Below are positions 44,129 through 59,256 of a stretch of 64,000 bases of DNA, in pieces. The stretch comes from Candidatus Zixiibacteriota bacterium (GTDB lineage Bacteria > Zixibacteria > MSB-5A5 > GN15 > JACZUZ01): contig JAJRPJ010000009.1 in the NCBI GenBank assembly GCA_024280835.1, positions 1 through 64,000 of the forward strand, read 5' to 3'. Below the pieces are notes generated by a model. It worked only from the letters and a program-made list of their open reading frames with translations. It had not been told where the DNA came from and searched no databases. Both the position numbers and the translations under genes were made by a program. The first letter of the stretch is position 1; each line of letters opens with the position of its first letter.

Positions 44129-44214
44129 GAGCACAAACTGTTTAACACTATTACGTACTTAGTGTGTTGAGGATATCTTTTCCTTTGAATACGAGGTTAT
44201 ACAAGTCCAAACAA

Positions 44215-44349
44215 TAAATATTCGAATGGATTGAAGTGTTTTACAACAAAGTCAGACGTCACTCTACTCTGGGATACATAAGCCCTGGTGAATTCGAAAC
44301 AGAAAATAGCTATGCTAAATAAACAGTCCACTTTTGTGGGGGAAGATCA
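44215..44349 (+). mobile_element. IS3-family remnant: transposase C-terminus and right end
   Basis: From 44218 the frame reads IFEWIEVFYNKVRRHSTLGY, continuing ISPGEFETENSYAK and then TAA at 44320. This is the last part of an IS3-family OrfB (DDE transposase). After the stop the sequence GTCCACTTTTGTGGGGGAAG matches the usual IS3 terminal inverted repeat. An in-frame TAA directly before the match shows that the rest of the element is gone. Confidence 0.88.
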
Positions 44350-45060: not shown

Positions 45061-45099
45061 AACTCGGCAGGTCAGGAGCACGGGTGCCCCATCCGCTTG

Positions 45100-45261
45100 G
45101 GGCTTGTTGATAAAGTCCCAAACCGTTGCGTTGGGTCTTGCGACGGCGCTTTTTGCCGTTGTGTGACCCGACGCTTTACCTATGAAAACGTGTGAGGTCA
45201 CAATTTTCAAAAAGCGAAAATCAAGACCTCACACAACAAATGGGACTTTATCAACAAGCCC
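45100..45261. mobile_element. MITE-like element, 162 bp, 21-bp terminal inverted repeats
   Basis: The left end begins GGGCTTGTTGATAAAGTCCC and the right end is its exact reverse complement over 21 bp. The element is bordered by CTTG on both sides (45096-45099 and 45262-45265), a 4-bp target duplication. The flanks (GCCCCATCCG and CGGTGGG) look like one palindromic repeat split by the insertion. It carries no gene but two inner palindromes: 45128-45174 and GTGTGAGGTC/GACCTCACAC at 45190-45234. The mobilising transposase is not present. Confidence 0.82.
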
Positions 45262-45281
45262 CTTGCGGTGGGATTAGTAAA

Positions 45282-45393
45282 GTAGGTCATGTCTCCTTCT
45301 TAGGGACTTGACGGTTTTCCGGTTCCGCACATAATCACACTTTCATCTTTGGCATAGTGTGTGTCAAGTCCCTGAAAAGGGGACATGACCTAC
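45282..45393. mobile_element. palindromic element, copy A (112 bp)
   Basis: Starts GTAGGTCATGTC and ends GACATGACCTAC, with a second inverted pair inside (GGGACTTGAC...GTCAAGTCCC). It is nearly the same as copy B at 45837 and the same length. A non-autonomous element or REP/BIME-type repeat is likely. Confidence 0.8.
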
Positions 45394-45420
45394 GAGATTG
45401 TTCTGCTAACTGTCAGACAC

Positions 45421-45455
45421 AAAAAAAACCAGCGCCTGAATCGGGCGCTGGTTTT
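45421..45455 (-). terminator. terminator of the truncated gene (copy A side)
   Basis: AAAACCAGCGCC, a 7-nt loop and GGCGCTGGTTTT. On the minus strand it ends in a run of eight T. It is homologous to the hairpin at 45977 and part of the duplicated block. Confidence 0.9.
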
Positions 45456-45479
45456 CTTGTTTGGTGTTGCTATTCTTTG

Positions 45480-45507
45480 TTTCGTCAGGTCCTCAGACCT
45501 GACGAAA
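45480..45507. repeat. extragenic palindrome with core GTCAGGTCCTCAGACCTGAC
   Basis: TTTCGTCAGGTC, CTCA and GACCTGACGAAA form a perfect 12-bp stem. The same 20-bp core recurs at 55343-55362. Confidence 0.85.
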
Positions 45508-45540
45508 ATTAGTCGTAGGTATGCCTACAAGAATCCGAGA

Positions 45541-45885
45541 TTATGGGTGTTTGGCGCTGGCGGTTTTGAACTCGGGGTGTTTGCGGAGTTCCTTGATTAG
45601 GCCGTTGACGGCGCCGTAGATTGCATCAGGTAATGTTATCGAGGCGTCTTTGACTCTTAGGTAGCTCTTGCCCCATTTGGTGTTGAACTTGACTTCCATC
45701 ACTTGCGCGCCCGTTTTGGCATCGTATAGTAATAGTGTGACATAGGTATTGACTCCCCCCGACTCAGCTGCAAATCTCAATTTTGTCAGCAAAAAACTCT
45801 CGGCATTGGTGACATCGACATAACTTTGCCAGTATAGTAGGTCATGTCCCCTTTTTATGGACTTGACATTTTTACGGTTCCGCAC
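45541..45885 (-). pseudogene. 5'-truncated gene whose start lies inside palindromic element B
   Basis: A frame of 114 residues with a GTG start. The first 16 or so codons are encoded by palindromic element B, and protein-like sequence begins only at YWQSYVDVTNAESFLL. The remaining about 95 residues look like a genuine soluble domain (TYVTLLLYDAKTGAQVMEVK) of unknown family. No ribosome site precedes the GTG. The simplest reading is that the element inserted and the true 5' end was lost. Its own terminator lies downstream at 45421-45455. Confidence 0.65.
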
Positions 45886-45948
45886 ATGTTCAAACAGCCT
45901 TCTTTGGCATAGTGAGTGTCAAGTCCCTGAAAAGGGGACTTGACCTAC
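45837..45948. mobile_element. palindromic element, copy B (112 bp)
   Basis: Starts GTAGGTCATGTCCCC and ends GACTTGACCTAC, closely matching copy A. The match continues past the element through a terminator hairpin to about 46024 (copy A: to about 45471), so a block of about 190 bp is duplicated. Confidence 0.8.
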
Positions 45949-45974
45949 GAGATTGCTCTACTAACTATCAGATA

Positions 45975-46008
45975 CAAAAAACCAACGCCTGAATCGGACG
46001 CTGGTTTT
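45975..46008 (-). terminator. terminator of the TlpA-like gene (copy B side)
   Basis: The minus strand reads AAAACCAGCGTCC, loop GATTCA, then GGCGTTGGTTTTTT. The stem uses two G-U pairs in RNA. It lies 47 bp after the stop codon at 46055. Confidence 0.85.
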
Positions 46009-46054
46009 CTTGTTTGGTGTTGCTGTTTGTGTGACAAGTTACTGGTGTGACTCG

Positions 46055-47629
46055 CTAGTGGACATTGCCGATGATGGCTTTCTTGACGGTCGCCCCTAGG
46101 TTTTCTCCGTGAAGGTCTTCGCCCATCGCTACTAGATTACCTTTGCGGTCAACTAGGAACATAGCGGGGATGGATTTGACTAGGAATCTGTCGGCCAATG
46201 AAATATTCCAGCCCTTGCCTTCATAGATATGGCGCCAGTTCATTTCTTTCTCAGCAGTCCATTTCCGCAATTGTTTGGTCGTCACTCGACTGTCATAGTC
46301 CAAAGAAACTGAAATTATTTCCAGCCCCTGCGAATGGTATTCCTTGTAAACAGACTTAACATTCGGCAACTCAGCCAAACAAGGGCCGCACCATGTCGCC
46401 CAAAAATCGACGAGCACAACTTTACCTTTGTAATCGGCGAGAGTAACATTCTTGCCCTTGAAATCAGGTTGATTCAAATCCAGCGGCCAGATTGAGTTGA
46501 CAGCATCTGAATGAAAACCAACAGAGATAATACGCATGGCATCTTTGTCATCGTCTTCGCGGCACTTATCAATAAGCGTCCGCAAATCAGCATAAAGCGC
46601 CTGAACTTCTTCGGGGCCTTCCTCATTGGCGGTGGCTAGCTTGTGAGCCATAATCCAAGCGCTAGCTGAACCACTGAAACTTGATTTTTCACTAACCTTG
46701 GCGAAATACGCCTGCGCTTGATTTATTGATGCAGTTTGCTCAGCGGATGGTTCGTCATCACAAAGTTTCTTAACCAGAGCCAACCCAGCAAGGTAATTCG
46801 CTTCATCGGCGGCTGGTGGTGGCGGTGAGGTCGCTAAATAAGCTTGCGCTTCTTTGACAACACCATCGGAAAGCGAGCCCCAACAATCCCAGATGGTTTT
46901 GATATTGCCGATTGTGCGAACGCGGTATAGTCCAGAATCATAGGTTGAATCACCTTTACGTAATTCTTGTTCAGCCGCTAGTCGACGAGCATAGAAATCC
47001 AATGACGCGGCGGCATACTGCCAGTCATGCCAGATGACAGCATTGGCTTTGAGAATATCACTTTGGGCTTGCGTCCAAGCGTTAAGCTCTTCGGGAGTCG
47101 AGAAAGTTTGCGGAGGAGTTGAATAGTCAGGTAAGCCATGTGCGAACATCTTGTCTTTGTCGGCTAAGTTTGCTTTGCTCTGGGCAACTAGCTTCTCAAA
47201 CTCAGGACTATCTTTCAATGACGCCAAATCTGAGTCATTCAATAAGTCATCAGGATTCGCCCAACCACTGTTGACTGATTCTTTGAGCCAGTGCAGACCT
47301 TTTTCTAGGTTCCCTGTTCGACCATAAACACAGGCGAGATTATAGGCGCCAAGTTTGCCCTCGGGAACCAGTTCCATTTGCGCAGTGAAACTCCCCACAG
47401 CTTTGGCTTCGTCACCTGCGTTCAAAGCCTGATAGCCATCATTCGCTAGGCTACGGTACTGGTCTATTATTTCTGAACTGTAAACTTTGGGTAGCTGGAG
47501 ACCATTGCTTGAACTGGTTTCCTTCGACGATGAGCAGGCCAAAGTTATCACCGAGAGCGCCGCTGTCAATGTGAATAACCCAATACGGCTTGCGAGTTTC
47601 TCTGTCCTGTGTGTTAGTAATCTTTTCAT
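46055..47629 (-). CDS. lipoprotein with TPR-like region and C-terminal TlpA-type thioredoxin domain
   Basis: 524 residues. AAGGAAAGT precedes the ATG. The signal ends at ITLACSSS, a good lipobox. Residues about 55-160 look like TPR repeats (GYQALNAGDEAKAVGSFTAQ). A helical middle part follows. Residues about 385-524 form a thioredoxin fold of the AhpC-TSA/ResA/TlpA type with redox motif WATWCGPC (about 417) and the cis-Pro in KSIPAMFLVD. It probably reduces disulfides in the envelope, on the periplasmic face of a membrane. The partner proteins are unknown. Confidence 0.9.
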   Translation of the reverse strand: MKRLLTHRTEKLASRIGLFTLTAALSVITLACSSSKETSSSNGLQLPKVYSSEIIDQYRSLANDGYQALNAGDEAKAVGSFTAQMELVPEGKLGAYNLACVYGRTGNLEKGLHWLKESVNSGWANPDDLLNDSDLASLKDSPEFEKLVAQSKANLADKDKMFAHGLPDYSTPPQTFSTPEELNAWTQAQSDILKANAVIWHDWQYAAASLDFYARRLAAEQELRKGDSTYDSGLYRVRTIGNIKTIWDCWGSLSDGVVKEAQAYLATSPPPPAADEANYLAGLALVKKLCDDEPSAEQTASINQAQAYFAKVSEKSSFSGSASAWIMAHKLATANEEGPEEVQALYADLRTLIDKCREDDDKDAMRIISVGFHSDAVNSIWPLDLNQPDFKGKNVTLADYKGKVVLVDFWATWCGPCLAELPNVKSVYKEYHSQGLEIISVSLDYDSRVTTKQLRKWTAEKEMNWRHIYEGKGWNISLADRFLVKSIPAMFLVDRKGNLVAMGEDLHGENLGATVKKAIIGNVH

Positions 47630-55027: not shown

Positions 55028-55133
55028 AACGCTGGTATAGATAAATCCCAAAACGCGTTGAGGCAAGCATTTGGTTGAATGAAAATGCACCAATCCCCCA
55101 ACGCCCTCCCATTTCCACCAACGCATCCCAGTC

Positions 55134-55364
55134 GTAGGGGCACAGCGTGCTGTGCCCTCTCCCGATTCCAGCAGAACATCCCGACCTGTAGGGGCATCGT
55201 TTCGGCGCCTTTCTTTTCGATTCACAAGAAAAGGCGCCGAAACCCTGCCCCTACGGTTGGTGAGATTTTCTTGACGCACAAAAGGCACAGCACGCTGTGC
55301 CCCTACGGTTGGTAGGTGTTTTCTTGGAATCGTTCTAGTTGAGTCAGGTCCTCAGACCTGACTC
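55134..55364. repeat. cluster of extragenic palindromes
   Basis: Three repeat types are packed between tpiA and the large dockerin gene. The first is TAGGGGCACAGC/GTGCTGTGCCC (55136-55158) with an inverted second copy (55284-55306). The second is GTTTCGGCGCCTT...AAGGCGCCGAAAC (55199-55243) followed by CCTGCCCCTACGG. The third is GAGTCAGGTC-CTCA-GACCTGACTC (55341-55364). The same types recur near 59 kb and at 45480. They inflate several spurious open frames. Confidence 0.85.
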
Positions 55365-58995: not shown

Positions 58996-59022
58996 GTTAT
59001 TACACAAGCAACCACATTCTTG

Positions 59023-59052
59023 AAAGGGCGCCGTTTCGGCGCCCTTTCCTTT
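59023..59052 (+). terminator. hairpin after the BNR-like gene
   Basis: AAAGGGCGCC, GTTTC and GGCGCCCTTT form a perfect 10-bp stem, then CCTTTG. It works as a terminator and also belongs to the GGCGCCGAAAC repeat type seen at 55199. Confidence 0.8.
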
Positions 59053-59154
59053 GTGGGCAACACTACAAATCAAGGCAAGGCAGAGAAACCCTGCCCCTAC
59101 AATTCGAACACATCATTGCCGACAGAACCATTGTGGCGAGTCTTGATACTCGTT

Positions 59155-59201
59155 GTGTCGGGTCTTGCGGCGGCGTTTTTTGCCGCCGTGTGACCCGACA
59201 C
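59155..59201. repeat. extragenic palindrome also found inside the MITE
   Basis: GTGTCGGGTC...GACCCGACAC encloses an inner GGCGGC...GCCGCC stem with a T-rich loop. It closely matches 45128-45174 inside the MITE. Confidence 0.85.
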
Positions 59202-59228
59202 TTAACTCAGCCTTACACCTATTCAGCG

Positions 59229-59256
59229 GAAAAGGCACAGCGCGCTGTGCCCCTAC
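59229..59256. repeat. extragenic palindrome AAGGCACAGC/GCTGTGCCCCTAC type
   Basis: GGCACAGCGCGCTGTGCC, followed by CCTAC. It is the same type as the two copies at 55136 and 55284. Confidence 0.8.

Follow-up and report, generated by a model that had tools for sequence, protein, structure and literature searches.

The window analysed here, 64,000 nucleotides from a Candidatus Zixiibacteriota genome (G000; 3.31 Mb in 20 contigs, 96% complete), carries two direct repeats of about 190 bp each next to a gene for a TlpA/thioredoxin-like lipoprotein (tlpA). They are located at 45282-45471 and 45837-46024, in the same orientation, and are separated by 365 bp without repetition (Table 1). The two blocks are identical in 167 of 190 alignment columns (87.9%; E = 2.8e-63 in a whole-genome search of G000), and the shared stretch begins with GTAG and ends with TGTTGCT. 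Outside these ends, 40-base flanks align at 45-48%, which is chance level. Broken down by part, identity amounts to 28/31 in the left and 30/31 in the right arm of the palindrome, 39/50 (78%) in its spacer, 23/28 (82%) in the linker, 34/37 in the terminator, and 13/13 in the tail (TTCTTGTTTGGTGTTGCT). The only full-length match to the block elsewhere in G000 is block 2; all remaining matches consist of the palindrome arms alone, save one that pairs the terminator hairpin with its own reverse complement. Thus, the two palindrome-plus-terminator blocks of equal orientation which the preliminary description had placed here are real. For comparison we used the sister species, Candidatus Zixiibacteriota isolate Dive100_bin1.56 (a MAG, G001), as the sole congener.

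Table 1. Features of the duplicated region and the adjacent tlpA gene (positions in the window)
Feature	Position	Strand	Remarks
REPIN copy 1	45282..45393	+	inverted GTAG-tagged arms at 45282-45312 and 45363-45393; 50-bp spacer
Terminator copy 1 (intrinsic)	45422..45458	-	follows the gene fragment; stem CCAGCGCC/GGCGCTGG perfect, with minus-strand U8
Solo REP from another family (GTCAGGTCCTCAGACCTGAC)	45477..45506		separated from block 1 by 5 bp
Truncated gene fragment	45541..45836 (end approximate)	-	matches the C-terminal 80 residues of a 196-aa putative lipoprotein of G025
REPIN copy 2	45837..45948	+	arms at 45837-45867 and 45918-45948
Terminator copy 2	45976..46011	-	about 45-80 bp past the stop of the TlpA-like gene, between REPIN and TlpA-like gene
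TlpA/thioredoxin-like lipoprotein gene	46055..47629	-	524 aa; ortholog with 68% identity in G001; terminator copy 2 is its terminator

The 112-bp palindrome, initially taken to be one element, does fold end to end (-59 kcal/mol for copy 1 and -56 kcal/mol for copy 2, calculated with RNA parameters); it consists, however, of a pair of 31-bp REPs (GTAGGTCAWGTCCCCTTTTCAGGGACTTGAC), each tagged with GTAG, which are inverted relative to each other and enclose a 50-bp spacer, their GTAG ends pointing outward. On its own, a REP folds into a 10-bp stem preceded by GTAG, and the two arms, 50 bp apart, are 90% complementary. A pattern search for the arm returned 16 occurrences in G000 and 19 in G001 but no hit in 58 further related genomes; the reversed pattern, used as a control, gave no match. 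The 16 arms in G000 comprise the two doublets in the window, one wider doublet (C18:19292-19463) and ten solo REPs. The doublets of the family in G001 measure 106-121 bp with spacers of about 45-60 bp and are built on the same plan, while their spacers and flanks are unrelated. With a short GTAG-tagged palindrome, multiple extragenic copies and inverted pairs that form a hairpin, the 112-bp palindrome is a REPIN of the GTAG class. Some members of the family share flanking DNA: three solo REPs in G000 (C13:165876, C10:1502 and C13:171549) do so, a C13/C10 pair having common flanks over 823 bp at 87%, and these were copied within larger duplicated segments. At C2:139-1009 of G001, a REPIN of the family is tandemly duplicated together with its flanks (379 bp, 91% identical, 493-bp spacing).

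The preliminary description had suggested looking for a REP-associated Y1 transposase gene, and one flanked by REPINs of this family does exist in the sister species, while no such cognate was found in the window's own genome. The G001 gene, a 169-codon open frame (C9:26933-27247), is bracketed by two REPINs of the family (118 and 120 bp) and matches the equivalog NF047646 with 136 bits against a cut-off of 80; judged by this arrangement, it is probably the mobiliser of the family. Its best match in G000 is only 45% identical, and at the orthologous site beside MreB in G000 a different gene is present. G000 possesses seven Y1 (PF01797) genes, on contigs C3, C7, C8 and C10, of which six score above the NCBIfam cut-off for REP-associated tyrosine transposases (RAYTs) and the C7 gene below it. 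Inverted REP-like hairpins particular to the gene lie on both sides of five of the seven; the C7 gene has direct copies of a REPIN-like doublet on either side, and the gene at C8:437634 has no flanking repeats. Copies of GTCAGGTCCTCAGACCTGAC, the solo REP found between the blocks, flank the RAYT at C10:345915, and GTAGGTCAWGTCCCCTTTTCAGGGACTTGAC flanks none of the seven. A cognate RAYT is therefore not among the Y1 genes of this 96% complete genome; the simple inference is that it was lost from G000, although the assembly is incomplete, and mobility of the REPIN in the window's genome today is at best putative. The congener G001 contains eight Y1 matches. These findings add to a poorly studied phylum a REP/REPIN family whose cognate RAYT can be identified, and the seven Y1/RAYT genes of G000, at least five of them with their own REPs, are a by-product of more interest than the duplicated terminator.

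Both terminators fold as hairpins followed by a T-run, and with the identity given above the terminators of two different genes are indeed homologous. Two changes in terminator 2 relative to terminator 1 yield G-U pairs in the minus-strand RNA and A-C mismatches in the plus-strand RNA. These changes fit a terminator that has been kept for the leftward tlpA gene, which suggests selection on it. The tlpA ortholog in G001 is followed by a hairpin with the same CCAGCGC/GCGCTGG core at a position equivalent to that of terminator 2. The alignment of terminator 1 with this G001 terminator is weak (79% over 42 nt, E 0.008), the match being short and palindromic. Since a similar hairpin occupies the equivalent position in the sister species, the most economical reading takes terminator 2 for the old tlpA terminator, with copy 2 as the probable source. 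Hairpins with T-runs in both blocks, together with G-U pairing retained on the tlpA strand only, might also be expected if the palindromes were a duplicated bidirectional terminator or attenuator selected to end transcription rather than mobile elements. We regard this as very unlikely, as the 31-bp REP occurs without this terminator at about ten further places and also around the G001 transposase gene. A comparison with Rfam produced sub-threshold chance matches only.

The leftward open reading frame between the blocks is, as noted previously, a gene fragment: it aligns only with the last 80 of the 196 residues of its homolog (residues 118-196 of the G025 protein, 44% over 80 columns), the sole one in the phylum. 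The truncation point and the outer end of REPIN copy 2 are about 20 bp apart, and the missing N-terminal part was found nowhere in G000. We also considered whether the fragment is a remnant of tlpA; this was ruled out, its only homolog being an unrelated putative lipoprotein. REPs are known to settle preferentially near gene 3' ends (PMC3733652), so that two REPINs might have inserted independently beside terminators that were already alike, be it in paralogous genes or following gene conversion. The two genes are unrelated, though, and the blocks have spacer and linker in common as well, whereas the spacers of REPINs elsewhere in the family are unrelated, which leaves this scenario with hardly any credibility.

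The suggestion that the element travels with, or was duplicated together with, its terminator can now be divided. The two were duplicated together, while travelling finds no counterpart, the terminator being confined to the two blocks. No third copy of linker plus terminator is present in G000, nor was one found beside the other REPs inspected; when genome copies are compared, similarity is limited to the 31-bp arm, and the terminator similarity is consequently a matter of local duplication, the outcome which the preliminary description had named as refuting its reading. The terminator as a component of the mobile unit is thereby rejected. With units of 190 bp that include linker and terminator, and 365 bp unrepeated between them, the locus represents a tandem REPIN cluster with flanks.

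We therefore favor, with a probability of roughly 0.8, a scenario in which a REPIN spread by a RAYT came to lie beside the tlpA terminator and was later duplicated locally along with it, the terminator being a passenger. The REPIN would be a miniature non-autonomous element, spread in trans by a RAYT (a Y1 HUH transposase) via a single-stranded intermediate, and one such element would have lain immediately downstream of the tlpA terminator. Some 190 bp, reaching from the outer GTAG end through the terminator, would subsequently have been duplicated locally in direct orientation and copied leftward. The likely route is template switching or replication slippage at the hairpins, or else a tandem duplication the interior of which was altered later. 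A simple tandem duplication leaves the 365 bp of unrelated sequence separating the copies unexplained; this stretch would later have gained the truncated gene and the solo REP of the other family. As the blocks have diverged by 12%, the event must be old and its original junctions are blurred. Mobilisation by the G001 RAYT, the mechanism of duplication and the role of copy 2 as the source are the parts of this scenario that we infer. The duplicated terminator is, accordingly, a passenger of an ordinary local duplication, and the element is of a known type.

The orthologous intergenic site of the sister species (G001:C7:47930-48586) also harbors a REPIN-like doublet twice in direct orientation, in this case a different one (117 bp, 97% identical). 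A 145-bp copy of the tlpA end (98% identical) is located there and is cut off at one of the doublets. At this junction the two homologies overlap by AGT, a microhomology of 3 bp positioned 6 bp outside the GTAG, and the two terminators at the locus are dissimilar. The tlpA intergenic region has thus apparently gathered REPINs and rearrangements independently in both species. These observations bear on the possibility that a RAYT moved REPIN and terminator as a single piece, in which case one boundary would be the GTAG end and the other a surrogate provided by the terminator hairpin or by a chance cleavage site beyond it. TnpA_REP cuts at CT sites on both sides of a REP and in vitro uses distant cleavage sites as well (PMC8266576); such distant cleavage would be in line with movement in one piece, as would the block boundary that falls exactly at the GTAG end and the G001 gene fragment which, at the equivalent locus, is also cut off beside a REPIN outer end. 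However, the block occurs just twice and at a single locus, the terminator is missing from every other copy of the REP family, and the AGT microhomology outside the GTAG is better explained by template switching, so that we consider movement in one piece improbable. It might further be speculated that RAYT action at REPIN ends captures and copies adjacent DNA such as the terminator and truncates neighboring genes close to the outer end of the REPIN, so that REPIN loci would be sites of recurrent breakage at which new gene fragments acquire terminators. We see this as a quite improbable generalization; if true, recurrent breakage at REPIN ends would help to explain why REPs accumulate at gene ends.

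The arrangement resembles that of known systems in several respects. In Pseudomonas, tandem REPIN clusters with flanks have been described as the commonest higher-order arrangement, and the units of ordered clusters are typically repeated in tandem "including the flanking sequences", with a short non-repeated stretch between units (Bertels and Rainey 2011, PMC3116915). Like those REPINs, the elements studied here are inverted REP doublets with a variable spacer that form one long hairpin, they occur as tandem copies including flanks with a short unrepeated gap, and the cognate RAYT is bracketed by REPINs. In contrast, the present family is low-copy, with 16-19 arms rather than hundreds; the duplicated flank holds an intrinsic terminator, and the gap is a truncated gene. 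As in the GTAG-tagged REPs and REPtrons (PMC3733652), a perfect hairpin carries GTAG at its base, dimers have spacers of 20-100 bp, and a genome contains several element-specific RAYTs; the host is, however, of the Zixibacteria type, unlike the Proteobacteria, Cyanobacteria, Chloroflexi and PVC group reported there. The E. coli REP/BIME and TnpA_REP system (PMC8266576) likewise couples a GTAG-plus-hairpin substrate with a Y1 HUH transposase of the IS200-like superfamily, although the stem in the present family is perfect and not bulged, and its activity is a prediction from sequence. A literature search on REPs duplicated together with Rho-independent terminators yielded nothing relevant.

Further repeats are present in the window. 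A C-terminal remnant of an IS3-type transposase is encoded at 44212-44325 on the plus strand (peptide FEWIEVFYNKVRRHSTLGYISPGEF; Pfam rve_2, 22.3 bits against a cut-off of 22). Additional palindromic repeat families are located at 45093-45268, 55120-55320 and 59020-59256. The first of these has 28-bp arms around an inner hairpin, which has further copies at 59151 and next to the M3 peptidase gene of G001.
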